Origin: a virus
DNA length: 50,795 nucleotides
Strand: one strand, 5' to 3'
IMG/VR virus record: IMGVR_UViG_3300032883_000526
Location: 1-50,795 of that record
In this document: positions 5,399-43,736 of the stretch, one piece after another
How positions within the stretch are numbered: position 1 is the stretch's first letter
Layout: the number at the start of each line of letters is the position of its first letter
The notes under the pieces: generated by a model
The model's database searches: none
What the model saw: only the letters and a program-made list of their open reading frames with translations
Told to the model about the DNA's origin: nothing
Program-made: the position numbers and the translations under genes

Positions 5399-5420
5399 TG
5401 GTCACAAATGGTCACAAAAC
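5399..5420. other. Putative integrase arm sites, P' arm
   Basis: Two tandem copies, TGGTCACAAA (5399-5408) and TGGTCACAAAAC (5409-5420), lie 47 bases right of the attP core, in the same orientation as the pair on the other side. Confidence 0.6.
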
Positions 5421-5930
5421 CAGCGGGGCTTTCTGAATCTCCAGCGGCGGGTACCAGTCCCACAGGCCGGGCGCCCCGCGCGCACGAACCGGCTCTCGCA
5501 GCGGTTGGATGTCATCCAGTATCCAGGCCCACCGACCCGGTGAGTAATCGCCGAATTCCACTTCGTACAGCCCGGCCGCGTAGGACCGATCGCCGACCAC
5601 AAGTCGACGCCGCAAGGTTCGATTTTGCCCCCCGCCATAGCGCTCAGCGCCTGGAATAACCAGACCAGCGAGTGCTACCTCGCTCCTGATGCAGGCCACC
5701 AGTAGAGCCGTCGCGAGGACGCAGCCGCGGGGTAGTTCGCGAGCGGGAGCCGGGAGGCATCGCGAGAACGGCGGCTTAAACGATGGATCCTGATAGTACG
5801 GTAGAACGCCCTTTGCCGCATGGATGGCTATCTCGCCCCTGTGTTTGGTGGACCAACTTCGCGTCTCGATGTGTTTCTCTCCAAGGGCGACCAGGTTGGC
5901 CCAGGGCTGAGTGAGTGAGAGAGCTTTCAT
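5412..5930 (-). CDS. ASCH/PUA-like domain protein
   Basis: The N terminus, MKALSLTQPWANLVALGEKH, then IETRSW, is the ASCH-fold signature (strand, Pro-Trp turn, E-R/K-R-x-W). GRWAWILDDI near the end is the closing strand. ASCH domains bind RNA or modified bases, and phage members have unproven roles. ATG at 5930 has AAGGA six bases upstream, which the in-frame ATG at 5936 lacks. The product is 172 residues. The stretch around GGGQNRTLR lies in the 43-bp repeat. The gene begins 13 bases after the integrase stop, so both are likely co-transcribed. Confidence 0.75.
   Translation of the reverse strand: MKALSLTQPWANLVALGEKHIETRSWSTKHRGEIAIHAAKGVLPYYQDPSFKPPFSRCLPAPARELPRGCVLATALLVACIRSEVALAGLVIPGAERYGGGQNRTLRRRLVVGDRSYAAGLYEVEFGDYSPGRWAWILDDIQPLREPVRARGAPGLWDWYPPLEIQKAPLVL
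5609..5651. repeat. 43-bp perfect direct repeat, copy 2
   Basis: This copy is identical to 4193-4235. It lies within the ASCH-domain gene, whereas copy 1 is intergenic, so copy 1 probably derives from this gene. Confidence 0.9.
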
Positions 5931-9751: not shown

Positions 9752-9993
9752 AACCACAGGGTTCCTCCGCCGCGCGCCAGTTCCGCTTCCAGGCGCGTGG
9801 GCTTGTAGGGCTGGGCGATCGGCTGGCTTTCGGGTTTCGCCTTTCGGCTATCCGAAGGCGCCGCGCAATGCGTGCCGGGTTCATTCAGTGCATCGGGCAG
9901 GCACCCTATCGCAACGGGTAATCTCGGCGGAAGGACCGGGGCCGGCCGGCGGGACGCCAGCGCTACATGGGCCGGGGCCGCCTCCATCTTCAT
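9748..9993 (-). CDS. Hypothetical protein, 81 aa, overlapping two genes
   Basis: The frame begins inside the end of the helicase-methyltransferase gene and ends in an ATGA overlap with the HTH gene, which favours real translation. The C-terminal motif YKPTRLEAELARGGGTLWL looks protein-like, whereas the first 45 residues are Pro/Ala-rich and may be read-through of low-complexity DNA. No family is recognised. The true start may be later, though no other ATG is present. Confidence 0.4.
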   Translation of the reverse strand: MKMEAAPAHVALASRRPAPVLPPRLPVAIGCLPDALNEPGTHCAAPSDSRKAKPESQPIAQPYKPTRLEAELARGGGTLWL

Positions 9994-31137: not shown

Positions 31138-32181
31138 ATGCCTACTCCCGCCCGCATTCAAGAATCCATGTTTGCGTGGGGTTTCCGCAAGCAGACCACC
31201 ATCGCCACCGCGGCCATTGCCGCCGATTGCTGGCGGCTGAACAAACTCGATGGCCTGCTCAAGGCCGACCTGGCGGTCGAAGATGACGCCGCCGAGATGG
31301 GCAAGGGGCACGAATTCGCCACTCAGGGTTTCCCCTCCCACTGGAACGTCAACGGCACCATCGACAAGTATCTCTCCTCGGAGTTCGCCGCCTGGGTGAT
31401 GTGCTTCGGCCTGGGCGGGGTCACCAAGGGCGGGACCTCGCACCTGACTTATACCTGCGTGCCGATCGTGCCGGCGACCGCGCTCGAACTCCCCTACTTC
31501 ACCTTCTTGGAGACCATCCGGCAGGGTGCGTCCTCGGTCCTGGACCGCGCCGTGCTGGGATGCGCCATCAACTCCTGGCTACTGAGCGTGGGCACCGGCC
31601 CCGGCCGCGCCAACGCCAAGTTGCGCGCCGACTTTCTGGGCAGCGGGAAAATTGTCGAGCCGTCCAACATCGTCATGCCGGCGTCGGCCACCGCCGAGCA
31701 CACCCTGTTCGGCTCTTCGGTCACCGCCACGCTCAATGGCGTCAATTATGTGACCGACAAGAATCTCGTGAGCCTGGAGGCCGGCTGGAACAACGGGATC
31801 AACGCCGATCAGGGCTTTTACCCAGGGTCCGACTTTCAGACTTCCGGCGACGCCACTACCGGCGCCATCCGCGGCCGGCATGAGATTGGCGTGCGCACCG
31901 CCTCGCTGAAATTCGTGGCCCGCTTCCTGAACGGGTCATTGGAATACACCAAGCTGAAGGCCCAAACCCCCGGCACCGCTGTGGTCACCCTGACTTATGA
32001 CACCAACAATTCCCTGAGCCTCACCTTCCAGCAGGTGCGATTCAAGGTAGTGGAGTTAGGCGAGTCAAACGGCATCGTCACCGTGGCCGTCGATTGCCAG
32101 TGCGATTACCACGCCACCAACGGCGTGCTCACCGCCGTGGCAAAATGCGACGTTGATAACATTTGCCAGGCGCCGGCGTAA
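31138..32181 (+). CDS. Major tail tube protein
   Basis: The 347-residue product has an N-terminal RIQESMFAWGFRKQTTIATA and a beta-rich body, ending in VTVAVDCQCDYHATNGVLTA, as in tail-tube proteins that replace lambda V. AAGGAGAA precedes the ATG. It comes directly before the tail chaperones and tape measure, which supports the call. It forms the stacked hexamers of the tail tube. Confidence 0.8.
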   Translation: MPTPARIQESMFAWGFRKQTTIATAAIAADCWRLNKLDGLLKADLAVEDDAAEMGKGHEFATQGFPSHWNVNGTIDKYLSSEFAAWVMCFGLGGVTKGGTSHLTYTCVPIVPATALELPYFTFLETIRQGASSVLDRAVLGCAINSWLLSVGTGPGRANAKLRADFLGSGKIVEPSNIVMPASATAEHTLFGSSVTATLNGVNYVTDKNLVSLEAGWNNGINADQGFYPGSDFQTSGDATTGAIRGRHEIGVRTASLKFVARFLNGSLEYTKLKAQTPGTAVVTLTYDTNNSLSLTFQQVRFKVVELGESNGIVTVAVDCQCDYHATNGVLTAVAKCDVDNICQAPA

Positions 32182-32220: not shown

Positions 32221-32294
32221 CGCGGGGAAGTGAACCGCTGTCACGCCAGGTTCATACCCTGGAAAGCCGGGTTGAACTCCCGGCCCCGCAACCA
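32221..32294 (+). tRNA. tRNA-Met(CAT), initiator-like, in the late operon
   Basis: A complete 74-nt cloverleaf can be drawn: acceptor CGCGGGG/CCCCGCA, D stem GTGA/TCAC (loop ACCGCTG), anticodon stem CCAGG/CCTGG with loop TTCATAC (CAT), variable AAAG, T stem CCGGG/CCCGG with loop TTGAACT, then A and encoded CCA. The C1-A72 mismatch is the mark of bacterial initiator tRNA. Two of three G-C pairs of the initiator anticodon stem are kept. The D loop lacks GG and T-loop position 56 is G, so the elbow is abnormal. Position 8 is A. It sits between tail-tube and chaperone genes. Confidence 0.7.
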
Positions 32295-32440
32295 TAGCGG
32301 CCAGAAGGCGGAAGGCGGAAAGCGGAAGGCGGAAAGCGGCCTTCTGCCTTCTGCCTTCTGCTTTCTGCCTATTGCTTTCTGTCTACTGCCTACTGCTCGA
32401 CCACCCCGCCAGGTCCGCAAATTCCCAACAAGGAGCTTTT
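32295..32440. repeat. GAAGGCGGAAGGCGG/CCTTCTGCCTTCTGC hairpin repeat
   Basis: AGAAGGCGGAAGGCGGAAAG (32303 onward) faces CCTTCTGCCTTCTGCCTTCT (32340 onward), an imperfect palindrome between the tRNA and the chaperone gene. No gene is seen. Confidence 0.6.
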
Positions 32441-33100
32441 GTGTCTGAACCAACTCCCGTATTTGACAGTTCCCGCAATTTCGAGGTGACTCTATCGGCC
32501 GAGGATGGCCGGCGCGCCGTCATCGTCCGGTTTCCCTCCGATGAAGAGTGGAAAGAGTACCAGCGCGGCATCCGCGTCATCACCCGCTCGCTGGGTGGCG
32601 GGCGCAGCCAGACCGATGTACCCGATAGCGAGGAAGCGGCATTCACGCTGTTCCGCAAAATCGAGATCGGCGGCCCCGCCGCCATTGAACCTTACGAGGC
32701 CGAGCAGGTGATCGATACCATCGGCCGCGCCCGCGTGGATTCCGTCGAGCGCATCCCCGGCGGCTTCCGGGTGGGGTTGGAAGTTCCCGGCGGCCTGATG
32801 AGCCATGAGCAGCGCCATCCCACCGCCAAGGAGCTCCAGCGTTTTGACCGCCACTACGCGCAGCAGACGCAGCTTCCCCACGCCCGTACCGAAACCATCG
32901 TCAACCTGGCCATCGCCGAGGAACTGTACGACAAGATCCAGACCGCGGCGACCGGGTACGCCGGCCCGGTCCCGATCAACCATAAAAGCGCCATTGTCGA
33001 TGCCGTGGTGAAGGCCATCCGGCTGGCGGTATCGGTGAAAGCCGTGGCGGACCCTTTGCCGGCGACGGATGGCCAGCCGACCCCGGGCTCCGCTACCTGA
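32441..33100 (+). CDS. Tail assembly chaperone G-like
   Basis: GTG 32441 follows AAGGAG. The 219-residue product begins with a strand-rich domain (NFEVTLSAEDGRRAVIVRFP, EEWKEYQRGIRVITRS) and a helical end. It has the place, size and frameshift site of lambda G, which coats the tape measure during assembly. The upstream ATG frame at 32372 is repeat DNA and is rejected. Confidence 0.75.
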   Translation: MSEPTPVFDSSRNFEVTLSAEDGRRAVIVRFPSDEEWKEYQRGIRVITRSLGGGRSQTDVPDSEEAAFTLFRKIEIGGPAAIEPYEAEQVIDTIGRARVDSVERIPGGFRVGLEVPGGLMSHEQRHPTAKELQRFDRHYAQQTQLPHARTETIVNLAIAEELYDKIQTAATGYAGPVPINHKSAIVDAVVKAIRLAVSVKAVADPLPATDGQPTPGSAT

Positions 33101-33390: not shown

Positions 33391-33418
33391 CTCCACCTGC
33401 CAATTGAAGAGAATTTCC

Positions 33419-36400
33419 ATGGGGGCAGTTAATCAACTCGTCCTCGGTATCACCGTCGAAAATCGAGGGGCTAATGAATCGATTCGGGCGGTGAACGCCA
33501 GCTTCGCCAACCTGGCACAGTCTGCGGCGCAGCACGCCCAGACCGCCTCCCGGGCCGTTGACGGGATGACCGGCTCTGTCACCAAGGGCGCGCTGGCCGG
33601 GACCTTGCTGGCCAACGCCTTCATGCAGGCCGCCGGCCATGTGAAAAACTTCATCAGCCAAAGCTTGGATGCGGCAACGCAACTTGAGCGGCTGGCGGTT
33701 GGAACCAACGCCCTGGCGCGCGCGCGCGGGCTCGACTCCGCCGCCGCCGGCCGCTGGATCGCGGATATCAAGAAGATTGGCTACACCGCGGCTGAGTCCA
33801 CTGAATTCGTAAATCGGATGCTGGTCGCGCAACTCGACCCGGCCAAAGGGAAAGCCCTGGCCACCTACGCGAAAAACATCGCGCACGCCTTTGGGCAGCC
33901 AGCCACCGAAATGCTGGATACTCTGTTCCGGGCGGTGGAAACGGGTCAGAGCCGGGCCTTGCGCCGCCTGGGTATCAACGTCGATCTGGCGAAAGTCACC
34001 GAACTGGCCACGCTCCAGGCCAAGTTGCAGGGCCGCGCGCTCAGTGAAGATGAGCAGGTCGCCGTGCGTTTCGAGGCGATTCTGCGCAAGCTCTCCAGCA
34101 CTCAGGGGATTGCCGCCGCCGCTGCGGAAACCGCGCAGAGCCGCATGGACCGCCTGCACCGCTCGATCAAAGAAACAGAAGTCGCCATCGGGCAAAAGCT
34201 GCTGCCGGTCTATGGGTCGCTGCTCGATCTGCTGAACCGCGCCACGCGCTCCGTGCTGGAGCATGCTGAGGCTTGGGGGCTGGTGGCCAAGGGAGTTGGC
34301 GCCGTAGCCGCCGGGTACGCCGGGTACAGGTACATCGCCGCGCCGGCCATGTCGGCGCTGGCGGCGGCCGGCGCTTCGGCTCTGGCGGCGGCCGGCGCTT
34401 CGGCTGCGGGCGCTGCGGCCGGCGCCGCCGGTACCTCGCTCATCCTGAACCAGTTCGGACGTCCGGCCATTGCCGCCGCTGCCGGCGCTGCCGGCGGCGG
34501 GATGGCGGCCGGAGCGTCGGCGCTGGTGGGCAGCATGGCCAGTGCCGCCGCCGCGATCGCGCCGATTGTTTTGGCTGTGCTGGCCTTGATCGGCATCGGC
34601 TGGGCCGTCAACCGGCTCAGGCAACCGGGCAGCTTCGTCGGGGAAGGGGCGCAGGCCTCCATCGCTTACCAGGCTTCCATCGATGCCGCCGCCAAGTTGC
34701 GAAACCAGCCGGGCGGCGTCTTCGGCATAGCTGCCGCTGGGCCCGGCGCCCAAGACAAACTGAACATCGACGCGCAGATCCGGGCGGCGAATCTGGCCCT
34801 CAAGGTCCGCGGCGAACTTGACCGGGTTTGGGAGCAGGTGGCCGTGGCCATGATTACCGGCATCGGCCAGGGCTTGGTGAAGATCATGCAGGAAAGCGGC
34901 GCCGAGAAGCGCCGCGGCGAGTACTCGCCGGCCCTCCAGGAAGCGCGGCTCGTTTTGTGGAAGGCTCAGGTCGCCGCCGGGCAGCGCGAACAACTCAAAG
35001 GCGCGGGCGTCTTCACCGGCGCCGGCGCCGAGGCCGGGATGGTCCGGTCCAGTCTGGAAGCGGTGAAGAAGTATTACGAACCGCTGCAGAAGATTGACCG
35101 GGAGCGCTTCGACCGCCGCATGGACATGGAAACCGCCCTGGCCAAGGAAGCCGAGAATCGCTCCATCGAGGTGTACCGCTTTGACGAAGAGCGATCGGGC
35201 ATCACGCGGGATGCGCAGCTCCGCCAACTCGAGATGGTGGACGCGCGCACCCTCGCGCAGAAGATTGCCGTCGAGCAGCAGAAGGCCAGCATCGAAATCG
35301 AGCACGCCCAGCGGATACACGAGATCAAGATGCGGCTGTTCGATATCGAGACCCGGCAGCAGCTCAGCGACCTGGAACTGCGCATGAAGGTCTCCCTGGC
35401 CTTCACGGACCAGGAGATTGCCGCCCGCGTCGAGGGGTTGCGTGCGGACCGCGAAGAGCTGGCGCGAACCATGGGCGAGGGGCTGGCCGCCAGCGTTACG
35501 GCCGTTCAGGAGACTGCTGCCGTGCGGTCCGCGCAGATCGTCCGCGACCAGGTCCGCAGCACCTTCGAGACCCTCAAATCCTCGGCTTCGGCGACTATTG
35601 ATGCCCTGTTTTCCAAAACGAAAAGCTGGACCGAGGCCATCGGCGCGACATTGAAAGCTGCAATTCTGACGCCCCTGAAGGAAATCGCTTCATCGCTGAT
35701 TGCCTCCGGCCTGATGCGGATCCTGTACGGCCAGAATGTCGGCTTCGGCGGTCGAGTCGGCGGGGGAACGGCATCGGCCGGCGCCGGCGGCGGCCTCCTC
35801 GGCATGCTGGGGATGGGCGCCGGAGGTCCCGGCGGAGTCGGGAGCGGAGGTTACGGAGGCTTCACCACGCCCACCTGGAGCGGCGCGCCAGTCCCCGGCA
35901 TCGGCGGATGGGGACCGCAGGGCAGCAGCCAGGCGGGCAGTGGCGGTCTCGGCGGAATCCTTCCCGGCGGAGTCGGGAGCGGGGGGTTCAATCTTGGCGG
36001 GCTGCGAGATTTGCTGGGCATGGGCTCGAGCATCAATCCCTGGGGAAGCGCGCGAGCGACCACTTGGGAGGCTGGCACGCTCGGCCAGCGTGCCGGGTCC
36101 ATTGCCAGTTCCCCGGCCGCCGGTATGGCCGGCGTCGGCCTATTCTTGGACGCCATGCGCCGCGGCGGGAAGGCGGGCATTGCGGAAGCGATGGCCGGCG
36201 GGGCTTTGGTTGGCCTGAATGTAGGCGGGCCTATCGGCGCGGCCATCGGCGCCGGGGTCGGGTTCGTGGCCGGCCTGATTCGTTCGTTCATCAAAGGCGC
36301 CACCGAAAAAGCCCGCGAGAAAATCCGCGCAGTCTATGGCGTGGACGTCAAGGATAAGGGCGTCCTCCAGCAGGTGATCGACATCGCCAAGCAGAGCTAC

Positions 36401-36799
36401 GGCGGCAACCTGGACATGGCCATCCGCACCCAGCAGGTCCGCGACTTGGTGGAACTTTACGCTATGTCCACGGGCCAAAGCCCGGGCGGCCTGCCGGCCA
36501 CGATGAAAGCCGTGTCCATGGCTCAGTCGGGCGGGTCGCTCTTCCAGATCCCCAGCACCGGCTTCGGCTCCACCTCCCTCTCCGGCCGCATCAGCCCGGG
36601 CGTGGCCAGCAATGCCGGGCCGCAGGTGATCCTGATCACCATCCCCGGCGCCAAGGACTTCTTCGAGAATGAGACCGTGAGCGTGATCGTCAACAATGGC
36701 CGGGTGGTACAGCAGGCTGCGGGTTCAGGAGCGCGCGCCAATGTCCAGCGCCGCGAGAACGCCATGCTGGCGCTCGCCCCCCTCGCCATTACCTCATAG
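33419..36799 (+). CDS. Tape measure protein
   Basis: The 1126-residue product starts MGAVNQLVLGITVENRGANE, is helical and Ala-rich, carries membrane-like segments around 295-405, a long charged coiled coil (about 480-720), a Gly-rich region (about 770-880) and a second hydrophobic stretch near 910-960. This is the plan of siphovirus tape measures that set tail length and pass DNA. By the usual 1.5 A per residue, the tail would be near 170 nm. AAGAGAA precedes ATG 33419; TTG 33404 is in frame. Confidence 0.9.
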   Translation: MGAVNQLVLGITVENRGANESIRAVNASFANLAQSAAQHAQTASRAVDGMTGSVTKGALAGTLLANAFMQAAGHVKNFISQSLDAATQLERLAVGTNALARARGLDSAAAGRWIADIKKIGYTAAESTEFVNRMLVAQLDPAKGKALATYAKNIAHAFGQPATEMLDTLFRAVETGQSRALRRLGINVDLAKVTELATLQAKLQGRALSEDEQVAVRFEAILRKLSSTQGIAAAAAETAQSRMDRLHRSIKETEVAIGQKLLPVYGSLLDLLNRATRSVLEHAEAWGLVAKGVGAVAAGYAGYRYIAAPAMSALAAAGASALAAAGASAAGAAAGAAGTSLILNQFGRPAIAAAAGAAGGGMAAGASALVGSMASAAAAIAPIVLAVLALIGIGWAVNRLRQPGSFVGEGAQASIAYQASIDAAAKLRNQPGGVFGIAAAGPGAQDKLNIDAQIRAANLALKVRGELDRVWEQVAVAMITGIGQGLVKIMQESGAEKRRGEYSPALQEARLVLWKAQVAAGQREQLKGAGVFTGAGAEAGMVRSSLEAVKKYYEPLQKIDRERFDRRMDMETALAKEAENRSIEVYRFDEERSGITRDAQLRQLEMVDARTLAQKIAVEQQKASIEIEHAQRIHEIKMRLFDIETRQQLSDLELRMKVSLAFTDQEIAARVEGLRADREELARTMGEGLAASVTAVQETAAVRSAQIVRDQVRSTFETLKSSASATIDALFSKTKSWTEAIGATLKAAILTPLKEIASSLIASGLMRILYGQNVGFGGRVGGGTASAGAGGGLLGMLGMGAGGPGGVGSGGYGGFTTPTWSGAPVPGIGGWGPQGSSQAGSGGLGGILPGGVGSGGFNLGGLRDLLGMGSSINPWGSARATTWEAGTLGQRAGSIASSPAAGMAGVGLFLDAMRRGGKAGIAEAMAGGALVGLNVGGPIGAAIGAGVGFVAGLIRSFIKGATEKAREKIRAVYGVDVKDKGVLQQVIDIAKQSYGGNLDMAIRTQQVRDLVELYAMSTGQSPGGLPATMKAVSMAQSGGSLFQIPSTGFGSTSLSGRISPGVASNAGPQVILITIPGAKDFFENETVSVIVNNGRVVQQAAGSGARANVQRRENAMLALAPLAITS

Positions 36800-36852: not shown

Positions 36853-37476
36853 ATGGTTATAAAAGGGACCTATGAAACGGTCCCCATCGATTCCGTTCAG
36901 CCGCATCCGCGCAACCCGCGCCGCGGCGATGTGGAATCGATTCGCGCCAGCATCCGCACCAATCGCTTTTTCGGCGCCCTGCTGGTCCAGCGGTCCACCA
37001 AGCGCATCCTGGCCGGCGAACATCGCTGGAGGGCCGCGAAGGTTGAAGGCATCAAGTCCGTCCCGGTTATCTGGGCCGACGTGGACGATGCCCAGGCCCT
37101 TCGCATCCTGCTGGCCGATAATCGCACCAACGACCTGAGCGGCTGGAATGACGATGCGCTGGGCAAGCTCCTGCAGGATATGTCCGGCGATGGCGGCCTG
37201 GATGGAACCGGCTTCGGTGAAAGCGACCTCGAAGAACTGCTCCAGGTTTCGGCGGGGTCGGAATTCAGGGATGCCGATGGCGATTCAGCCCCGCCTGCCG
37301 GCAGCCGGTTATCCGATCCGAAGCAGCTGGTGAAGGCGGTTCTCTACTGCGAGCAGGTGGGGATACTCGAAGAGGCGCTCGATGCCACCGGGGAAATGAA
37401 TCGCGGCGAGGCGTTGTTGAAAGTCTGCCGGTTCTACCTTGCCTCAAAAGAAAGACAACTCGACGGTGAGCCGTAA
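36853..37476 (+). CDS. ParB/Srx-fold protein
   Basis: The 207-residue product holds VPIDSVQPHPRNPRRGDVES, LVQRSTKRILAGEHRWRAAK, the ParB-type CTPase/nuclease signature (GxHRxxAA variant GEHRWRAA). The C-terminal part is helical with a short acidic stretch. No helix-turn-helix is evident, so a partition role is unlikely. Such genes in phages often pair with DNA methyltransferases or act as nucleotide-dependent switches. ATG 36853 follows a repeat-derived stretch; 36811 is a possible earlier start. It overlaps the next gene by 38 bases. Confidence 0.75.
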   Translation: MVIKGTYETVPIDSVQPHPRNPRRGDVESIRASIRTNRFFGALLVQRSTKRILAGEHRWRAAKVEGIKSVPVIWADVDDAQALRILLADNRTNDLSGWNDDALGKLLQDMSGDGGLDGTGFGESDLEELLQVSAGSEFRDADGDSAPPAGSRLSDPKQLVKAVLYCEQVGILEEALDATGEMNRGEALLKVCRFYLASKERQLDGEP

Positions 37477-38104
37477 AGTCAATCTGCGACTGAAGGCCCT
37501 GACCGAACTCGGCGCGCCAGCGATCGTCATGGAAACTCACGGCGGGTACGGCCATATCTGGCAACGATGCTACCGCGAGATTCCGCGCGGCGCGGTCCTG
37601 GAAATCCGAGCCGAGGACGCCGAAGCGTTGGCCCGCCAGCGTCCGACCTGGGCCGTGTACCAGGCCGATTGTGTCAACGCGCTGGCTGGCGGAGTAGGGG
37701 CGCATTTCAAGATCAACTTCCTGGATTGCGACCCCTGGGGTGAGCCCTGGCCGGTGATCACCGCGTTCTTTTCGAGCAAGCGGCCCTTCCCGAAGCGCCT
37801 GGCCCTGGTGGTTAATGACGGGTTGCGCCGGAAGCTGAAATTGGGCGGGGCCTGGACCGTGGGTTCGCTCAGCGATGTTGTGCGGCGCTTCGGCAATGGC
37901 CGCATCTACCGCGATTACCTGGCCGTCTGCCGCATCTTGGTAGCCGAGAAAGCGGCTCTGGCCGGTTATCGGATCATCCGTTGGGCGGGGTATTACTGCG
38001 GCGAGCGCCAGCAGATGACCCATTATGCCGCCATTCTGGAAAGGGAATCAGGAGCCCGGCGGGTTCATAAGCCGCAGGAGGGAGGGGGCCAGGTCGGGCG
38101 GTAG
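37439..38104 (+). CDS. Class I methyltransferase-like protein
   Basis: The 221-residue product has a Rossmann-type pattern: IVMETHGGYGHIWQRCY (motif I-like glycines), AVLEIRAEDAEAL, ADCVNAL and NFLDCDPWGEPWPVI (motif IV-like D-x-D-P-W-G). The DPWG/DPFG motif recalls Trm1-type RNA guanine methyltransferases. RNA or DNA as substrate is open. Its stop overlaps the end of the radical SAM gene by 57 bases, tail to tail. Translated with the ParB-like gene. Confidence 0.65.
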   Translation: MPQKKDNSTVSRKVNLRLKALTELGAPAIVMETHGGYGHIWQRCYREIPRGAVLEIRAEDAEALARQRPTWAVYQADCVNALAGGVGAHFKINFLDCDPWGEPWPVITAFFSSKRPFPKRLALVVNDGLRRKLKLGGAWTVGSLSDVVRRFGNGRIYRDYLAVCRILVAEKAALAGYRIIRWAGYYCGERQQMTHYAAILERESGARRVHKPQEGGGQVGR

Positions 38105-38932
38105 GGCCTCTGCCAGGTCACGCTTGATGTAATAGGGTTTCCCCAGCGCCTCAAGGGCTGTGATCGCCGCCAGGCCGAACGCCCGCCAGTCGATTATGGC
38201 CGCCAGGGGATGATAGTTGAGCCGGCCGACTTTGAAGAGATCCACGTAGGGGGCCGTTTCGCGGATAATGCCCAAGGCGGCCTCGGGGTCGAGCACCGGT
38301 TCCAGGGATACCCAGGTGGGCACCCCGGCCGCGTGGTAAGCCTGTATGGCCTCCAGGCGGTCCATTGGTGAGGCCGCGCCGGGTTCCCATTCCCGCCAGC
38401 GATCGTCGAGCAGGGTAAGAGTGGTGGCAAAGGCATTTCCATAGCCAGACGCCGGGTTTGCGTCTGGCGGGAGGGAGCGGTCCCGATCCGCCGCAAATAG
38501 ATCCAGGTCCCGCAGCGCCCGTGTCCCGCCCTTGGTCAGAACGTGCACCGCATGCCCGGCGGCGTGCAGGATCTTGATGGCCTCGCGCGTGAGGCCGAGC
38601 CGGGCATCGAGGAGCTGGTAGGGGTCGCAGGTGAAGCACAACAGGATCGGCGGCGTAGCGCTGGCGGGACGCCGGCCGGCCTCTTTCTCCAGGCGCTTTA
38701 GGAAATCGTCGCCGCGCGGTTCGGAGCAGGCGAACGATGTCCGGGTTCGGTGGGTGGCCGATGGCGCATAGCAGTAGGTACAGCCGTGGTCGCAGCCGCG
38801 GTAGATGTTGCAGGCCAGGGCAGCGTACTCGCGGGCCCGGCCGGAAGGCTCATAGATGAGGCCGTCCAGAGTGCGGGGTGCGTCCGCTGCGGCGGACGGA
38901 GTGCGGAGTTCAAACAGCGTTTCCGGCTTCAT
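38048..38932 (-). CDS. Radical SAM protein, spore-photoproduct-lyase-like
   Basis: The 294-residue product has the iron-sulfur motif CDHGCTYCY (Cys47, 51, 54), then PPILLCFTCDPYQLLD, typical of the SplB-like Rv2578c family of radical SAM enzymes. These use a 4Fe-4S cluster and S-adenosylmethionine to start radical reactions; SplB repairs UV damage in DNA. The substrate here is unknown. ATG 38932 overlaps the AAA gene stop (ATGA) and has GGGAG upstream, supplied by the 68-bp repeat. Last gene of the leftward operon. Confidence 0.85.
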   Translation of the reverse strand: MKPETLFELRTPSAAADAPRTLDGLIYEPSGRAREYAALACNIYRGCDHGCTYCYAPSATHRTRTSFACSEPRGDDFLKRLEKEAGRRPASATPPILLCFTCDPYQLLDARLGLTREAIKILHAAGHAVHVLTKGGTRALRDLDLFAADRDRSLPPDANPASGYGNAFATTLTLLDDRWREWEPGAASPMDRLEAIQAYHAAGVPTWVSLEPVLDPEAALGIIRETAPYVDLFKVGRLNYHPLAAIIDWRAFGLAAITALEALGKPYYIKRDLAEALPPDLAPSLLRLMNPPGS

Positions 38933-39762
38933 GCGTTTGCTCCCTGCTGCGCGGCCAGCTTGGCCCGCCGGGTTACCCAAGCCTTTTGAGCCGGGGTGAG
39001 CGAGTCGATGGATTGAATCTTCGGTTTCGGCGTGGCGGATTTGCAGACCGTGGCCTTCATTCCGCACTGACTCGGCGCCATCAACTCCACTTCCAGGCGC
39101 ATCAGCGCTTGCCGGATATTAAGCTGGCTGGCTTCCAGGATGGCGGTGAGCGTGGCCGCATCCGGTTCGGTTTCCGATTCCGCGCGCCAGATCCGCGCCA
39201 GCAGATCGAACCCCGGCTCGGCCATCCCGTCCCGCGTGAATTCGATCACCCGGCATCGGCTGATAAAGCGGTCCTCCAGCAGCGACGTGCTGTTGGCCGT
39301 AAAGATGAAGACCGTTTTCGGGACCGCCCCGGTGGAATCGAGCTTCGAGAGAAACGCGAGTTGCGCGGCCCGGCTCATTTGGTCCGCCTCGTCCACCAGA
39401 ACGATGTGGAATCCGCCGCCCATGGGGACGTACCAGCAGAAAGAGCATAGCCGCTGGACGGTCTCCAGGTCGCATTCCCGTGAGGGGATGTGGTGGATCT
39501 CGCCGTGAATCATGGCCGCGAACGCCAGGGCCATGGTCGTTTTCCCCGTGCCGCTCGGGCCCACCAGCAGCCAGGCCGACTCGTAGGGTGCCCGCGCGAA
39601 ATTGGTGAAGACTGCCCGCGGCCGCTGGAGCCCGGCGAAATCCCCCAGGGTTTTGGGTCGGTACTTTTCGGAAAGCGGTTGCGGGAAGTCCAGCCCGTCC
39701 TGGCTGGCGGCCGGCGCCTTGGCCCCGCCGTACCCGCTCGATAGCATGAATGCGCTGGTCAT
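38929..39762 (-). CDS. Clamp-loader-like AAA+ ATPase
   Basis: The 277-residue protein shows SEKYRPKTLGDFAGLQ (the RFC/DnaX opening), Walker A GPSGTGKT (68-75), Walker B VLVDEAD (121-127), sensor 1 FTANST and the SRC motif (168-170). This is the clamp-loader fold that opens sliding clamps. No phage clamp is seen, so it may use the host clamp. The last 24 residues (SLTPAQKAWVTRRAKLAAQQ...) are encoded by a duplicated segment also found in the 33-residue gene upstream. GGGAGGA from that segment serves as its ribosome site. Confidence 0.85.
   Translation of the reverse strand: MTSAFMLSSGYGGAKAPAASQDGLDFPQPLSEKYRPKTLGDFAGLQRPRAVFTNFARAPYESAWLLVGPSGTGKTTMALAFAAMIHGEIHHIPSRECDLETVQRLCSFCWYVPMGGGFHIVLVDEADQMSRAAQLAFLSKLDSTGAVPKTVFIFTANSTSLLEDRFISRCRVIEFTRDGMAEPGFDLLARIWRAESETEPDAATLTAILEASQLNIRQALMRLEVELMAPSQCGMKATVCKSATPKPKIQSIDSLTPAQKAWVTRRAKLAAQQGANA
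38940..39007 (-). repeat. 68-bp direct repeat, copy 1 (C-terminal tail plus RBS)
   Basis: 67 of 68 bases match 39774-39841. It encodes the clamp-loader C terminus and carries the ribosome site of the radical SAM gene. Confidence 0.95.
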
Positions 39763-39768
39763 CTATTG

Positions 39769-39870
39769 TTATCCTCCCTGCTGCGCGGCCAGCTTGGCCC
39801 GCCGGGTTACCCAAACCTTTTGAGCCGGGGTGAGCGAGTCGTAATAAACACCATTGTTTCTTGCCCCCAT
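39769..39870 (-). CDS. 33-residue peptide sharing the clamp-loader tail
   Basis: A very strong ribosome site, AAAGGAGGTGA, precedes ATG 39870. The product is MGARNNGVYYD followed by SLTPAQKVWVTRRAKLAAQQ and GG; all but the first 11 residues match the clamp-loader C terminus with one change. It ends 7 bases before the clamp-loader ATG. It overlaps the end of the next gene upstream. A decoy or co-subunit carrying the same tail is one idea. Confidence 0.7.
   Translation of the reverse strand: MGARNNGVYYDSLTPAQKVWVTRRAKLAAQQGG
39774..39841 (-). repeat. 68-bp direct repeat, copy 2 (C-terminal tail plus RBS)
   Basis: This copy encodes the C terminus of the 33-residue gene and carries the ribosome site of the clamp-loader gene. 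The single difference changes Ala to Val. Confidence 0.95.
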
Positions 39871-40115
39871 GCTGCCTCACCTCCTTTCTGTTGGGATACT
39901 AGCATGTTTATTGCGGCTTTCGTTTTGGTTGTCAGGTCATACTCGGGCACCAGCACGTCAGATGCCTTATTGCGAAAAATGGCATAACGTGCATTAACGA
40001 TACCTGTTGGGGCGGTCCATCCAGCGAAAGTTCCACGGGTAAAACGTATCCGCCTCGGCGGTTTGCGCGATGGTTCAAAGGAGCAGTAAGTGTATTTCAC
40101 GCCGCGTCCTGCCAT
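39807..40115 (-). CDS. Small-gene array: basic protein, 102 aa
   Basis: GGGAGG precedes ATG 40115, behind a hairpin leader. The product is basic with FEPSRKPPRRIRFTRGTFAG, GIVNARYAIFRNKASDVLVP and a helical YDLTTKTKAAINMLVS. The end reads through the start of the 33-residue gene. No family recognised. Confidence 0.6.
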   Translation of the reverse strand: MAGRGVKYTYCSFEPSRKPPRRIRFTRGTFAGWTAPTGIVNARYAIFRNKASDVLVPEYDLTTKTKAAINMLVSQQKGGEAAWGQETMVFITTRSPRLKRFG

Positions 40116-40129
40116 AAACGCCTCCCATG

Positions 40130-40161
40130 CGCCGCTCAAACGCTGCCACGGTTGAACGGCG
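40130..40161 (-). promoter_or_regulatory. Leader hairpin type A, copy 1
   Basis: On the minus strand CGCCGTTCAA pairs with TTGAGCGGCG, 10 bp with one G-U, just before GGGAGG. The same hairpin at 42035-42064 has two compensatory pair changes. Confidence 0.75.
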
Positions 40162-40171
40162 GAGCGGGGCG

Positions 40172-40333
40172 CTATATACCCGCCACGCAGAGAGACCACA
40201 GACCGTCGTCACGGTCCTGGGCATCTGGGGAGCGGCCGTAGATGGCGCGGAATACCTGCTCCAGGTCGTCCTGGTCCAGGTTATCATCATCCGTGTGACT
40301 GCGAACATATTCGCGCGCTTCCAGTTTCGTCAT
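40172..40333 (-). CDS. Small-gene array: acidic protein, 53 aa
   Basis: GGAGGG precedes ATG 40333, next to a hairpin leader (40346-40361, GCCGG/CCGGC). The product MTKLEAREYVRSHTDDDNLD, then QDDLEQVFRAIYGRSPD and GLWSLCVAGI, is an acidic two-helix protein. Ends with TAG followed by GCGCCCCG. No family recognised. Confidence 0.7.
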   Translation of the reverse strand: MTKLEAREYVRSHTDDDNLDQDDLEQVFRAIYGRSPDAQDRDDGLWSLCVAGI

Positions 40334-40433
40334 TTCATCCCTCCTGCCGGTAGTTGCCGGCCCTCGGCGCTCCGCTCGGGAGCATCCAGGGCCGGGCCGC
40401 CGAGGTCTCCAGTCTCGGCGGCGGACCGGGGCG

Positions 40434-40541
40434 CTACAATATGGCCTTCCGCGCCTCCTCGATGCCTGCCTGTACGTCGCTGTGGAGGATGGCCGGGTCA
40501 TAGCCGTCGCCGGCTTCGATACCCTGGGGATCAGTTGCGTC
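40434..40541 (-). other. Open segment without a start codon, ends in TAG-GCGCCCC
   Basis: 35 in-frame residues (DPQGIEAGDGYDPAILHSDV, then QAGIEEARKAIL) look coding and end with TAGCGCCCC like other array genes. No ATG, GTG or TTG precedes it in frame; a stop lies directly upstream. The frame is +1 to the end of the gene at 40531, so a frameshift product or an indel is possible. Confidence 0.45.
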
Positions 40542-40857
40542 TCACGTAGCGGAGGCGTCCGCCAGGGGCGTTGTAGCCTGCGATCTCCTGCGGACCCACA
40601 ACAAGCCCACAACCACAACCGGAGCCATCGTCCTCGAGTCCGCCATGCGGGCAAAGCGCATTTATGATGCGGTCAGTCATGGTAAATTCGTAGGGCCATG
40701 CAGCCTCGGACTGTCCATGCGTCTGCGGTCGCAGGCGCACAGTTACGGACGTGGCGTGGAAATTGTTGAAAAGTTTAATCGTCGGACGCGCTTTCGCCTC
40801 GCGCGTTCGTCCAAGTTTCTGAGTGTCGGTGCGTGTGTTAGAATTAGAGGTGACCAT
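40531..40857 (-). CDS. Small-gene array: Cys-rich protein, 108 aa
   Basis: ATG 40857 follows GAGGG and a leader with a CCAGCG/CGCTGG hairpin. The product has a basic start, then TIKLFNNFHATSVTVRLRPQ and a cysteine cluster, MTDRIINALCPHGGLEDDGS with GCGCGLV. One zinc site is likely. The pattern KLFNNFH...VR is a recurrent motif of small proteins in some environmental phages. Ends in TGA overlapping the +1 segment at 40434. Confidence 0.65.
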   Translation of the reverse strand: MVTSNSNTRTDTQKLGRTREAKARPTIKLFNNFHATSVTVRLRPQTHGQSEAAWPYEFTMTDRIINALCPHGGLEDDGSGCGCGLVVGPQEIAGYNAPGGRLRYVRRN

Positions 40858-41034
40858 GAGCGTTACCCTCAGCGTTTCCTCTTTACTGGGCCGCCAGCGT
40901 GGGGCGCTGGCTCCCTGCCGGCGGGTTGCGCCGGCCCTCGACACCGCCTCAGCGATGCCCAGGGCCGGGGGCGACCGTCTCGCCGTCGCCCGTGCCCCGG
41001 CTACCGGCCGGGGAGCGCTCCGCCCGCGCGGCGA

Positions 41035-41247
41035 TCACTTGACCGGGCAGAAATCGCGTACTTGATCCTGGCGCTTCACCGCTAATTTCGTCGCCTCGTC
41101 GCGTGCATCTTCGAGGGCTGCGCGCCGTTCCACCGCATCCTCGTAGACATACTCCGCTACCATGCCGGCGGCGTCGGCGATCTGCACGCGACCGATTTGC
41201 GCGCGAAACCGGCCTGTCTGCTGCACATGCTCACGTATTTCGATCAT
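41035..41247 (-). CDS. Small-gene array: helical protein, 70 aa
   Basis: AGGAGG precedes ATG 41247, beside the leader hairpin GCCGGC-AACCC-GCCGGC (41261-41277). The product (MIEIREHVQQTGRFRAQIGR ... EDAVERRAALEDARDEATKL) is charged and helical. No family recognised. Confidence 0.65.
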   Translation of the reverse strand: MIEIREHVQQTGRFRAQIGRVQIADAAGMVAEYVYEDAVERRAALEDARDEATKLAVKRQDQVRDFCPVK

Positions 41248-41260
41248 CTCTCATCCTCCT

Positions 41261-41277
41261 GCCGGCGGGTTGCCGGC
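41261..41277 (-). promoter_or_regulatory. Leader hairpin type B
   Basis: GCCGGC pairs with GCCGGC across AACCC, 6 bp, directly followed by AGGAGG on the minus strand. Similar hairpins lie at 42261-42279 and 40346-40361. Confidence 0.7.
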
Positions 41278-41333
41278 CCCCGCGTGAATCGCGGCGCTGA
41301 GGCCCGAAGGCCCCCGCGTCGGGACTCAGAGCG

Positions 41334-41462
41334 CTACCGCTTGTAGTGGCTCCTTTCCAGCAGGATGCTGGCGGCGCCGCTCGAAAGCTGCGCCGTCAGA
41401 ACCCTGGGATCAGGAGAGCCGGAATCCGTGGGTGCCGCAATAACTGTCGTCAATCTGTTCAT
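41334..41462 (-). CDS. Small-gene array: 42-aa protein overlapping the next gene
   Basis: The frame MNRLTTVIAAPTDSGSPDPR ... ILLERSHYKR overlaps the end of the 111-residue gene by 53 bases, in the +1 frame, and ends in TAG followed by GCGCTC. A GAGG lies upstream. It could instead be a +1 extension of that gene. Confidence 0.45.
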   Translation of the reverse strand: MNRLTTVIAAPTDSGSPDPRVLTAQLSSGAASILLERSHYKR

Positions 41463-41745
41463 CCCCGAATGCCTCGCGCAGGGCCGGCAGCAACGTGTCG
41501 GTGCTGAGGTTTGCGACCCCGACGAGCCAGGCACCGCTACGGTGCTGGTATCCCCAGGTGCATTTGGTATCCGTTTGCCCGAGCAGGTGGATCCCATGCC
41601 TGCCAATGGTCAGCCCGCCGTTGTTGTCGTGTTGCTCCTCCTGTTCCTCCGACAGGTTGATCAGATTGTAGCGGGTATAACCTGCTGCGATTGCGCGGCG
41701 GATCAGTTTCGCCCGTCGTGTGCGTCCGATTCGTTGAGTGTTCAT
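41410..41745 (-). CDS. Small-gene array: 111-aa protein
   Basis: ATG 41745 follows AGAGGAAACGCTA, a leader type also found before the gene at 40531. The product starts MNTQRIGRTRRAKLIRRAIA, then GYTRYNLINLSEEQEEQHDN, and has an alpha/beta C-terminal part (CTWGYQHRSGAWLVGVANLS ... ALREAFGDEQI). No family recognised. Confidence 0.65.
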   Translation of the reverse strand: MNTQRIGRTRRAKLIRRAIAAGYTRYNLINLSEEQEEQHDNNGGLTIGRHGIHLLGQTDTKCTWGYQHRSGAWLVGVANLSTDTLLPALREAFGDEQIDDSYCGTHGFRLS

Positions 41746-41851
41746 TAGCGTTTCCTCTACTCTGGCCCGCCAGCGTGCCGCACTGGCGCGGGGGCGACCC
41801 TGTCGCGTTCGCCCGCTCCCCGCCGCCCCTGTGCTGGCAGTGAGGGCGGGG

Positions 41852-42016
41852 CTAAGTGTTGTAATCCGCGACCAGTTTGCCGCTGGCACGGTCGAAAAAC
41901 TGCACGGTGTATTGGCCCGCGCCATGTGAACTGCGTTGCCTGCGTGTCCCAGGATGCCGTCTTTGCAACCGGTTGATAATCCTCGTTCGTTCCCTGCTGT
42001 TGTCGCTGATTTTCAT
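41852..42016 (-). CDS. Small-gene array: 54-aa protein
   Basis: GGGAGG precedes ATG 42016 behind hairpin leader type A. The product is basic (MKISDNSRERTRIINRLQRR) and ends YTVQFFDRASGKLVADYNT, a beta-hairpin-like motif. Stop TAG. Length is below common gene-finder limits. Confidence 0.65.
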   Translation of the reverse strand: MKISDNSRERTRIINRLQRRHPGTRRQRSSHGAGQYTVQFFDRASGKLVADYNT

Positions 42017-42034
42017 GGCTAAGTGCCTCCCATG

Positions 42035-42064
42035 CGCCGCCCGAATCCTCCGAGTCGGACGGCG
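42035..42064 (-). promoter_or_regulatory. Leader hairpin type A, copy 2
   Basis: CGCCGTCCGA pairs with TCGGGCGGCG, 10 bp with one G-U at the same place as at 40130-40161. Pairs 7 and 9 differ in a compensatory way (T-A to C-G, A-T to G-C). Confidence 0.75.
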
Positions 42065-42074
42065 GAGCGGGGCG

Positions 42075-42248
42075 CTAGATGTTAGGATCAGCCTCGCGCA
42101 ACCATTGGATGTCGTCGGTCAACTTACGCTGGGCTGCGGGGCGGTCGAATCCGAGCCGCGCACCCTGGTCCTGCGGCTGGTGATGAAATCCGTCAGAGTT
42201 TTCGTCGGCCACGTAGTAGCCGTTGGCACCTTCGAAAATTTTCAGCAT
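42075..42248 (-). CDS. Small-gene array: first gene, 57 aa
   Basis: AGGAGG precedes ATG 42248, next to leader hairpin type B (42261-42279). The product MLKIFEGANGYYVADENSDG ... AAQRKLTDDIQWLREADPNI starts with a beta hairpin and ends in a helix. Stop TAG followed by GCGCCCCG. Promoter-proximal gene of the operon, about 50 bases from the predicted transcription start. Confidence 0.7.
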   Translation of the reverse strand: MLKIFEGANGYYVADENSDGFHHQPQDQGARLGFDRPAAQRKLTDDIQWLREADPNI

Positions 42249-42304
42249 TCTCATCCTCCTGCCGGCGGGTTGCGCCGGCTACGCTTTTGCGATTTAACGA
42301 ATCC

Positions 42305-42333
42305 ATTATGATACGCCACGTATCAGGTGTCAA
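42305..42333 (-). promoter_or_regulatory. Leftward promoter with operator O1
   Basis: On the minus strand TTGACA (42328-42333), a 17-base spacer and CATAAT (42305-42310) form a near-consensus sigma-70 promoter into the small-gene array. The spacer and -10 hold the perfect palindrome TGATACG-TGG-CGTATCA (42309-42325). The same operator lies before the XRE gene. Confidence 0.85.
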
Positions 42334-42365
42334 GGAAAATCGGAGGCCGGGGGTATGAATAATTT

Positions 42366-42596
42366 TTATGGGTTGCGGACCCTTTCCGAGCGATTGGTGT
42401 CTCTTTTTCGGCCCCGGCGGGCCGCGGAAAAAACCGCCCCCAGCATCTCGATCATGCGCGCCGTCCGCCGCGAGATGGGATGAAGGCCCATTTCCCAGCG
42501 GTTTACGGAATTGCGGGTTACCCCGATCAATTCCGCGGCCTGATCCTGCGTCAAGCGCCGCCGCCGGCGCCAGCGTTGCAATTCTGCGGGTGTCAT
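42366..42596 (-). CDS. XRE-family repressor of the array operon, 76 aa
   Basis: The 76-residue product is little more than one helix-turn-helix domain: MTPAELQRWRRRRRLTQDQA, AELIGVTRNSVNRWEMGLHP. It lacks a dimerisation or peptidase domain. It sits between two copies of a 17-bp operator and should repress both its own promoter and that of the array. The predicted transcript starts at about 42597, so its mRNA is probably leaderless, and no ribosome site is seen. The gene stops 33 bases before promoter O1. Confidence 0.85.
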   Translation of the reverse strand: MTPAELQRWRRRRRLTQDQAAELIGVTRNSVNRWEMGLHPISRRTARMIEMLGAVFSAARRGRKRDTNRSERVRNP

Positions 42597-42603
42597 GGTC
42601 GCC

Positions 42604-42632
42604 AGCATACGCCGCGTATCAGGGGAAGTCAA
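42604..42632 (-). promoter_or_regulatory. Autoregulated promoter with operator O2
   Basis: On the minus strand TTGACT (42627-42632), a 17-base spacer and TATGCT (42604-42609) form a good promoter. The spacer holds TGATACG-CGG-CGTATGC (42605-42621), one outer pair weaker than O1. Transcription should begin at about 42597, one base before the repressor ATG. Confidence 0.8.
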
Positions 42633-42730: not shown

Positions 42731-43129
42731 ATGCCCCAAAGCGTTCCCAATGCCGTCCCTGCGACCGTGCTCCCGGTGAGCCTGTCCACGGCCTTCGAGC
42801 GCATCCAGGAATTGCCGGTGGTCATCAATGAATACCGGGACGGCGAACCGCAACTCTCGCGCCAGGCCGAAACCAGTCGCGTGAGCTGGCGGCTCGGCAA
42901 ACGCCTCTCGGCCGGGGCCCTGGCCACGCTCCGGACTTTCCACAACGCCCGCAACGGCCGCCAGGAAGCGTTCTACTTTTACGATCCGTTCGAGACCAGC
43001 CCGCGCTTCACGCTCAGTCCCTCGGGCACCACCGGGCGATATACGGTCCGGTTCGATTCGGATTGGTCGCAGTCGGCCGGCGTCGGCGCGCGCCTGGAGA
43101 CCGAGATGGTGTTGATCCAAGTGGCGTGA
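42731..43129 (+). CDS. Minor tail protein, M-like
   Basis: The 132-residue product has VPATVLPVSLSTAFERIQEL, RVSWRLGKRLSAGALATLRT and RQEAFYFYDPFETSPRFTLS, the plan of lambda M-type or DUF2460-like tail-tip proteins. It resumes the rightward tail order after the leftward module. Its ribosome site is unclear, in repeat DNA. Confidence 0.7.
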   Translation: MPQSVPNAVPATVLPVSLSTAFERIQELPVVINEYRDGEPQLSRQAETSRVSWRLGKRLSAGALATLRTFHNARNGRQEAFYFYDPFETSPRFTLSPSGTTGRYTVRFDSDWSQSAGVGARLETEMVLIQVA

Positions 43130-43217: not shown

Positions 43218-43736
43218 ATGGACTTACTCGAAAAACTCGCCCGCGAAACCGCCGCCCGCCAGGGAATTGACCCGGCCATCGTCTGCGCCATCTGCGAGCA
43301 GGAAACGCACTGGAACCCCTGGCTAACCCGCTATGAGGCCACATACCACAATAGCCAGGTGGTGCTGGGCGAGGCCGCGAAGTTCGCCCCACGGGCGCCC
43401 TACACCGTCTCGATTGCCACCGAAACCATCTGCCGCTGCCTGTCTTGGGGCCTCATGCAGATCATGGGGCAGACGGCGCGCGAGTTCGGCTACCTGGGTC
43501 CCCTGGCGCAGCTCTGCGACCCGGCCGCCGGGATCGAGTGGGGCTGCGTGAAGCTGGCCCGCTGCCTGAAGGTCAAGCGCGGCGACGTGCGCGCGGCCGT
43601 GGCGCTCTACAACGGCGCCCGCGATCCGTCCCTCAGCCGCTATGACGATGAAGTTCTCGCCCGCATGGGAAAGTACATGCCGCCGCTGGTCGCCGGACGC
43701 CCGGCCGTGGATATTGGACTCCTGGAAGGGAAATGA
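43218..43736 (+). CDS. Lytic transglycosylase, SLT family
   Basis: The 172-residue product has IVCAICEQETHWNPW (catalytic Glu29), LSWGLMQIMGQTAREFG and AVALYNGA, the three motifs of the soluble lytic transglycosylase fold. It cleaves the glycan strand of peptidoglycan. In a tail operon it may act at infection through the tail tip rather than as the endolysin; no other lysin is visible. No signal peptide. Confidence 0.85.
   Translation: MDLLEKLARETAARQGIDPAIVCAICEQETHWNPWLTRYEATYHNSQVVLGEAAKFAPRAPYTVSIATETICRCLSWGLMQIMGQTAREFGYLGPLAQLCDPAAGIEWGCVKLARCLKVKRGDVRAAVALYNGARDPSLSRYDDEVLARMGKYMPPLVAGRPAVDIGLLEGK

Follow-up and report, generated by a model that had tools for sequence, protein, structure and literature searches.

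ParBc domains are often fused to DNA methyltransferases and are also encoded near the DNA carboxymethyltransferase CmoX (PMC12783734). Another described arrangement is the pairing of DUF5131 (phage Gp37/Gp68) with TcmP (PF07505/TIGR04474), for which no function was found in the literature searched. This work concerns a gene cluster that resembles both arrangements and lies at 36853–42632 of the IMG/VR virus record IMGVR_UViG_3300032883_000526. The sequence under study, referred to here as the window, is this entire single record of 50,795 bases. The cluster consists of a rightward ParB-like gene, a rightward gene for a methyltransferase-like protein (MTl) and, running towards them on the opposite strand, a leftward operon that starts with an XRE-type repressor and ends with an AAA+ ATPase and a radical S-adenosylmethionine (SAM) enzyme. 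Comparison of sequences and structures demonstrates that the ParB–MTl–radical SAM linkage is recurrent across uncultured phages.

Linkage was assessed through three separate searches of viral contigs, using the radical SAM protein (80 loci), a profile of MTl (57 loci) and a profile of the ATPase (42 loci), after which all families were mapped in all sampled loci. The loci were drawn by short patterns, and the counts describe these sampled loci only; they include deduplicated loci with flanks of at least 2.5 kb on both sides, and a partner was scored when it lay within 2.5 kb. In the MTl-seeded set, a ParB gene on the same strand accompanied 31 of 32 distinct loci. A radical SAM gene was present in 17 of these 32, in every one of the 17 cases on the opposite strand and convergent. 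In the radical SAM-seeded set, ParB was found in 24 of 35 loci, MTl in 17 and the AAA+ gene in 3. This second set leans towards its seed motifs, of which the MTl-seeded set is independent. In nearly all of the 42 convergent loci, the gene ends are about 140 bp apart or closer, and usually they overlap; in the window, the radical SAM and MTl genes overlap tail-to-tail by 57 bp.

The order of the genes varies among relatives. A co-directional order, ParB–MTl–radical SAM, is common as well; terminase and portal genes often lie on either side of it. Four-gene sets were found as ParB–MTl–AAA–radical SAM (L056 and L057) and as ParB–AAA–MTl–radical SAM (L154), and one locus (L011) has a single open reading frame (ORF) matched by both the ParB and the MTl profiles. 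In the named GenBank record Dulem virus 36, a ParB gene, a distant homologue of MTl (1e-29) and a PA0069-like radical SAM gene follow one another. The unit is located at the terminase in most relatives but among tail genes in the window, and therefore it moves. Although the unit recurs in many uncultured phages, 50,697 phage records gave only three matches for the radical SAM enzyme and, at E 1e-5, none for MTl. Searching phage records with the nucleotide sequence of the block likewise produced no matches.

The first-pass annotation had singled out the leftward operon as the best candidate for an undescribed system. A full-text literature search found no account of the gene set, which upholds one half of that claim; the other half gives way, since the operon enzymes are linked to the opposite-strand ParB (36853–37476) and methyltransferase-like (37439–38104) genes, which directly adjoin the operon, belong with it and had been overlooked. 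Its suggestion that the same set be sought in other prophages was fruitful for the enzyme genes, which are linked across phages with ParB and the methyltransferase, but not for the small ORFs and the XRE gene, which are not conserved alongside them. In other words, the AAA+ and radical SAM genes do not appear to make a stand-alone system; judged from sequence comparison, they are part of a ParB–MTl–radical SAM unit common to many uncultured phages.

The ParB-like gene (36853–37476, plus strand; alternative ORF start TTG 36811) encodes 207 amino acids that match PF02195 (1.7e-11) and phrog_723 (1.9e-39), and it also resembles the ParB part of the phrog_498 DNA methyltransferase (7e-28). MTl (37439–38104, plus strand, 221 amino acids) has a Trm1-like class I fold with the motif D-x-D-x-[YFW]-x-x-P. 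Its AlphaFold model, obtained with 26 relatives, has a mean predicted local distance difference test (pLDDT) score of 90.8, and its top Foldseek match is Trm1 (3axs, E 4.8e-9). VIA-align gave a Z of 14.8 over 195 residues for the comparison with Trm1, followed by many class I RNA methyltransferases. At the sequence level, the MTl profile matches Trm1 2dul at E 9e-5, with DLDaYGsP aligned to DLDPFGSP and TDG to TDG. A profile comparison with TcmP from cyanobacterial genome sequences gave E 4e-5 and a probability of 70, the FAGxG and D-x-DPYG motifs being in register. No NCBIfam family matched 37439–38104 at E up to 1, which leaves MTl outside TIGR04474 (TcmP; cut-off 53 bits). The fold and profile matches to Trm1, together with the profile match to TcmP, indicate that MTl is a Trm1-like methyltransferase and a remote relative of TcmP.

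The radical SAM enzyme (38048–38932, minus strand, 294 amino acids) matches PF04055 at 8e-6, slightly under the curated cut-off. The nearest NCBIfam families are PA0069 and Rv2578c, with 71.2 and 53.6 bits against cut-offs of 360 and 430, so that the protein belongs to neither. The structure closest to its model (pLDDT 85) is that of spore photoproduct lyase, 4fhc, at a Z of 17.7 over 223 residues; the next family reaches 15.7. The protein has both the barrel of the spore photoproduct lyase (SPL) type and the CxxxCxxC cluster motif, in which C48, C52 and C55 are invariant. Spore photoproduct lyase requires a further cysteine, Cys140. In an alignment of 25 relatives (A6), the three cluster ligands are the only invariant cysteines, with none left as an extra hydrogen donor; therefore, lyase chemistry with an additional cysteine donor is unlikely.

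The slot of the radical SAM gene can be occupied by another family. The window enzyme itself falls outside DUF5131 (14.3 bits against PF07505, cut-off 28.9). A DUF5131 gene fills the convergent slot in L110 (8e-82) and L123 (3e-75), and a DUF5131-like protein recognised by motif does so in L184. Of 12 cyanobacterial loci examined, 11 also have a DUF5131-like gene next to TcmP, and in Gordonia phage Bosnia a DUF5131 gene and a TcmP-like gene are convergent. Thus, two radical SAM-like families pair with two related methyltransferase-like families. An alignment of relatives (A1) was too diverse for the contig scan and was divided into A3–A5; a genome scan with A3 matched just three genomes (one Chloroflexi and two cyanobacterial metagenome-assembled genomes), and TcmP was not found in these three. 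A single pathway for the methyltransferase and its radical SAM partner is predicted by the tail-to-tail layout and by the occupation of one slot by either of two radical SAM families; gene linkage, conserved convergence and displacement by DUF5131 together suggest the same. As a separate observation, an ORF downstream of ParB–MTl in one locus (L134, 9023–10006) carries a different CxxxCxxC motif (GCRLRCPFC) and may represent a third radical SAM type.

The AAA+ ATPase (38929–39762, minus strand, 277 amino acids; phrog_168 2e-23, PF00004 1.4e-10) is clamp-loader-like but devoid of the collar domain. Its sequence holds the Walker A motif GPSGTGKTT, the Walker B motif VDEAD and the SRC arginine finger. 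Solved clamp loaders (RfcS/RFC and the T4 subunits) match it at residues 28–225 only (28–222 for the RfcS/RFC chains), and its relatives, as aligned, terminate after the lid domain without a collar. An ASCH-domain gene lies directly downstream of four close ATPase relatives (L142, L144, L155 and L179). In L142, L144 and L179, the AAA+/ASCH pair is convergent to a gene for a P-loop protein, beside which ParB is located in L142 and L144; the arrangement in these two loci is much like that of the window, where the AAA+ and radical SAM genes face ParB and MTl. ASCH domains have been proposed as readers of modified bases. Many collar-less AAA+ relatives (L145–L178) lie about 1 kb or less from the end of contigs of about 40–43 kb, which perhaps reflects a phage group with this gene at the genome end.

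Taken as a whole, 36853–42632 has close to an even chance of being a cargo island in the late region, with a nucleic-acid modification module as its core and phage DNA as the most likely substrate. DNA is considered the likelier substrate because of the ParB partner, given its likeness to phrog_498 and the known association of ParBc domains with DNA methyltransferases (PMC12783734). In such a module, the ParB-like protein would recruit or load the methyltransferase on DNA, and the methyltransferase would alkylate a base, the guanine amino group being a guess taken from Trm1. The radical SAM enzyme would modify that base or another one by radical chemistry, and the AAA+ ATPase would help assembly or turnover on DNA. 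The modification would shield packaged DNA from nucleases of the host, which agrees with the unit usually lying beside the terminase. A more specific and more tentative proposal is a so far undescribed two-step hypermodification of phage DNA in which a ParB-guided Trm1-like methyltransferase works with a radical SAM enzyme of the SPL-like or DUF5131 kind and the collar-less clamp-loader ATPase is an optional helper. If true, this two-step scheme would give the DUF5131–TcmP pairs of bacteria and phages a first function. The predicted single pathway of the two enzymes makes the function of pairs of this type testable and hints at a possible new modification of DNA or RNA.

Several points weigh against DNA modification. 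The DNA substrate is something we infer, and Trm1 and many other structural neighbours of MTl act on RNA. About half of the ParB–methyltransferase loci have no radical SAM gene nearby, and the AAA+ gene is only an occasional member (3 of 35) that is mostly located elsewhere. Additionally, the record has other DNA-acting genes, namely a helicase–methylase fusion and an ASCH gene, so that one more modification enzyme is no proof. Of the 922 amino acids encoded by the fusion (9881–12649), the first part matches phage DNA helicases and the second an N6/N4 DNA methylase. Near the fusion are a PAPS-reductase-like gene (4336–5178) and the ASCH gene (5412–5930).

The main rival explanation is that the Trm1-like and radical SAM enzymes modify host or phage tRNA in infection, as Trm1 and MiaB/TYW1-type enzymes do. 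The closest solved relative of MTl is indeed a tRNA methyltransferase, and a tRNA-Met gene is present in the window at 32221–32294, among late genes, between 31138–32181 and 32372–33100. However, tRNA genes occur in just 7 of 44 related loci, a weak linkage, and DNA is indicated by the ParB-like protein that accompanies 31 of the 32 loci, by the one ORF joining ParB and methyltransferase, and by the nearness of the radical SAM enzyme to a DNA-acting photoproduct lyase. RNA modification is therefore judged unlikely. The same structural match, with its lead in Z score over the next family, favours a DNA repair function, in which the radical SAM enzyme, assisted by the other genes, would act as a photoproduct lyase that repairs UV lesions in the DNA of the phage or prophage. 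Repair is nevertheless very improbable, since only the cluster cysteines are invariant in the 25 relatives and spore photoproduct lyase needs one more, and since repair would not account for the constant association with methyltransferase and ParB.

A cassette for defence or prophage maintenance, expressed in the lysogen, is also improbable, although less so than repair. According to this explanation, the XRE-controlled genes would exclude other phages or stabilise the prophage, and the linked ParB and methyltransferase would belong to the same cassette. An autorepressor of its own, a pair of operators unique to it within the record, an island-like position within the late genes and small fast-evolving ORFs all agree with such a role. 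On the other hand, PADLOC assigned the operon enzymes to no defence family convincingly and returned just generic ATPase and HTH (helix-turn-helix) matches for the operon; moreover, relatives lie beside the terminase in many phages, and ParB and the methyltransferase are co-directional with the late genes. Replication takeover, offered by the first-pass annotation, would have the AAA+ ATPase load a clamp on phage DNA, and of all the explanations considered it is the one with the least credence. It draws on a clear AAA+ domain of the clamp-loader family and on one ATPase relative (L003) near prim-pol-like and DNA-polymerase-like genes, read by eye. The collar is missing from the window ATPase and from the aligned relatives, the large ORFs of the record, which may be incomplete, include none recognisable as a polymerase or clamp, and the repeated linkage of the ATPase is instead with genes for ParB, radical SAM or ASCH proteins. 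In effect, defence and repair are possible roles that are less well supported than nucleic-acid modification, which is the reading retained here.

The leftward operon and its autorepressor are genuine at the level of sequence. The operon runs from 42596 to 38048 and has 11 genes, counted as ORFs with plausible starts, rather than the approximately 12 first described: the XRE gene, eight small ORFs, the AAA+ ATPase gene and the radical SAM gene. The remaining features of that description, namely the terminal clamp-loader-like and radical SAM pair, the repressor with two operators and two promoters, and the rightward flanks, were borne out. Upstream is a long rightward ORF (33404–36799) that is tape-measure-like by position, length and composition, with no PHROG match. 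Downstream are a rightward gene (42731–43129), which is probably a minor tail gene, and an SLT transglycosylase gene (43218–43736). An integrase gene is present in the same phage record.

The repressor (42366–42596, minus strand, 76 amino acids) matches PF13560 (1.3e-8) and PF01381 (2.6e-8). Both predicted promoters are sigma-70-like and located on the minus strand: that of the operon (42305–42333) reads TTGACA-17-CATAAT and matches 11 of 12 consensus positions, and that of the repressor (42604–42632) reads TTGACT-17-TATGCT and matches 9 of 12. Each 17-nucleotide spacer is filled by an operator, TGATACGCCACGTATCA in the operon promoter (42309–42325) and GCATACGCCGCGTATCA in the repressor promoter (42605–42621). 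These near-identical 17-bp palindromes are the sole matches at up to 4 mismatches in 50.8 kb, with 0.1 expected at up to 3. ATG 42596 is the more likely start of the repressor, because the alternative, TTG 42632, coincides with the first position of the −35 hexamer; since this ATG lies 7 nucleotides past its own −10 element, the repressor mRNA would be nearly leaderless.

Operators of the same type stand at the repressor's own promoter and at that of the operon, as in an autoregulated unit, and because each is inside a promoter, the XRE protein most plausibly acts as a local autorepressor. It would restrain both the enzyme operon and its own gene through the two operators, and the operon would be timed apart from the late genes carrying ParB and the methyltransferase. 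The restriction of the operator to the operon fits expression independent of the main switch of the phage. In relatives, the leftward gene sets can hold another DNA-binding protein, such as ParB with HTH (L012 and L092) or HTH_17 (L135). It may thus be a general feature of relatives that the radical SAM side is controlled separately, although the regulator varies.

Between the repressor and the ATPase, all on the minus strand, lie small ORFs that were called from leaders and codon composition. A GC-rich hairpin and a Shine–Dalgarno sequence precede most of them, and most show a coding-like distribution of GC over the codon positions, though this signal is weak for 39807–40115 and 41852–42016. 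P1 (42075–42254, 59 amino acids) is the first gene past the operon promoter and has a Shine–Dalgarno/hairpin leader and coding-like GC, while P2 (41852–42016, 54 amino acids) shares with P7 a hairpin leader whose arm differences are compensatory. P3 (41410–41745, 111 amino acids), P4 (41035–41247, 70 amino acids, with a hairpin and Shine–Dalgarno leader) and P6 (40172–40333, 53 amino acids, with a Shine–Dalgarno leader) have coding-like GC, and P5 (40531–40857, 108 amino acids) is an ORF call. P7 (39807–40115, 102 amino acids) has a single distant relative (52% identical, in L200), encoded upstream of a terminase-like gene, with a ParB gene 2.3 kb away. The last, a 33-amino-acid ORF (39769–39870), has a strong Shine–Dalgarno sequence, and its C-terminus repeats that of the ATPase (xSLTPAQKxWVTRRAKLAAQQG). 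This likeness reflects a 68-bp direct repeat, 99% identical (38940–39007 and 39774–39841), in which the end of the AAA+ gene is duplicated as the end of the small ORF just upstream of it. Relative searches found no relatives of P3, the radical SAM loci held no relatives of the small ORFs, and two of the ORFs searched in cultured phages gave none; the small ORFs would be lineage-specific accessories.

Some further sequence features were observed in this region. Leader cassettes, each a GC-rich hairpin followed by a Shine–Dalgarno sequence, recur in a few types before operon genes (39762–42280). Between P5 and P6 (40420–40530) is a coding-looking stretch of 30 codons, DPQGIEAGDGYDPAILHSDVQAGIEEARKAIL, which has no start codon and may be a gene that has been broken or frameshifted. 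Eight places in the window (670, 2826, 13469, 30331, 36827, 38882, 42698 and 43189) carry a 16-bp palindrome, GTCCGCYGCGGCGGAC, giving 15 strand matches against 0.06 expected. Some of its copies flank both ends of the island from ParB to XRE, and one lies within the 5' end of the radical SAM gene.

Compared with known systems, each component of the locus shares recognisable features with a described family and departs from it. The ATPase has the AAA+ domain of clamp-loader small subunits (RFC and T4 gp44), with Walker A, Walker B and SRC motifs, but no collar, and neither a clamp nor a polymerase was recognised among the large ORFs of the possibly incomplete record. MTl shares with Trm1 (tRNA guanine-26 N2-dimethyltransferase) the Rossmann methyltransferase fold and the D-x-D-P-x-G-x-P ... 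TDG stretch. It differs in its length of about 221 residues, which lacks the C-terminal part of Trm1 (367–387 residues), and in being phage-borne and linked to ParB. The radical SAM enzyme has the fold and the CxxxCxxC motif of the spore photoproduct lyase/PA0069 group (COG1533), whereas it has no further conserved cysteine, scores far under the NCBIfam cut-offs and is always found here in phage gene clusters. As in ParBc–DNA methyltransferase fusions and CmoX neighbourhoods (PMC12783734), ParB stands beside, or in one ORF with, a SAM-dependent methyltransferase, and a ParB_N domain adjoins MTl in the window; the window enzyme, in contrast, is Trm1-like rather than CmoX or a member of a known DNA methylase family, and it has a radical SAM partner. 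Finally, the window shares with the DUF5131–TcmP pair a three-cysteine radical SAM-like protein directly adjoining a methyltransferase-like partner, and to this two-enzyme core the unit described here adds the ParB and AAA+ genes.

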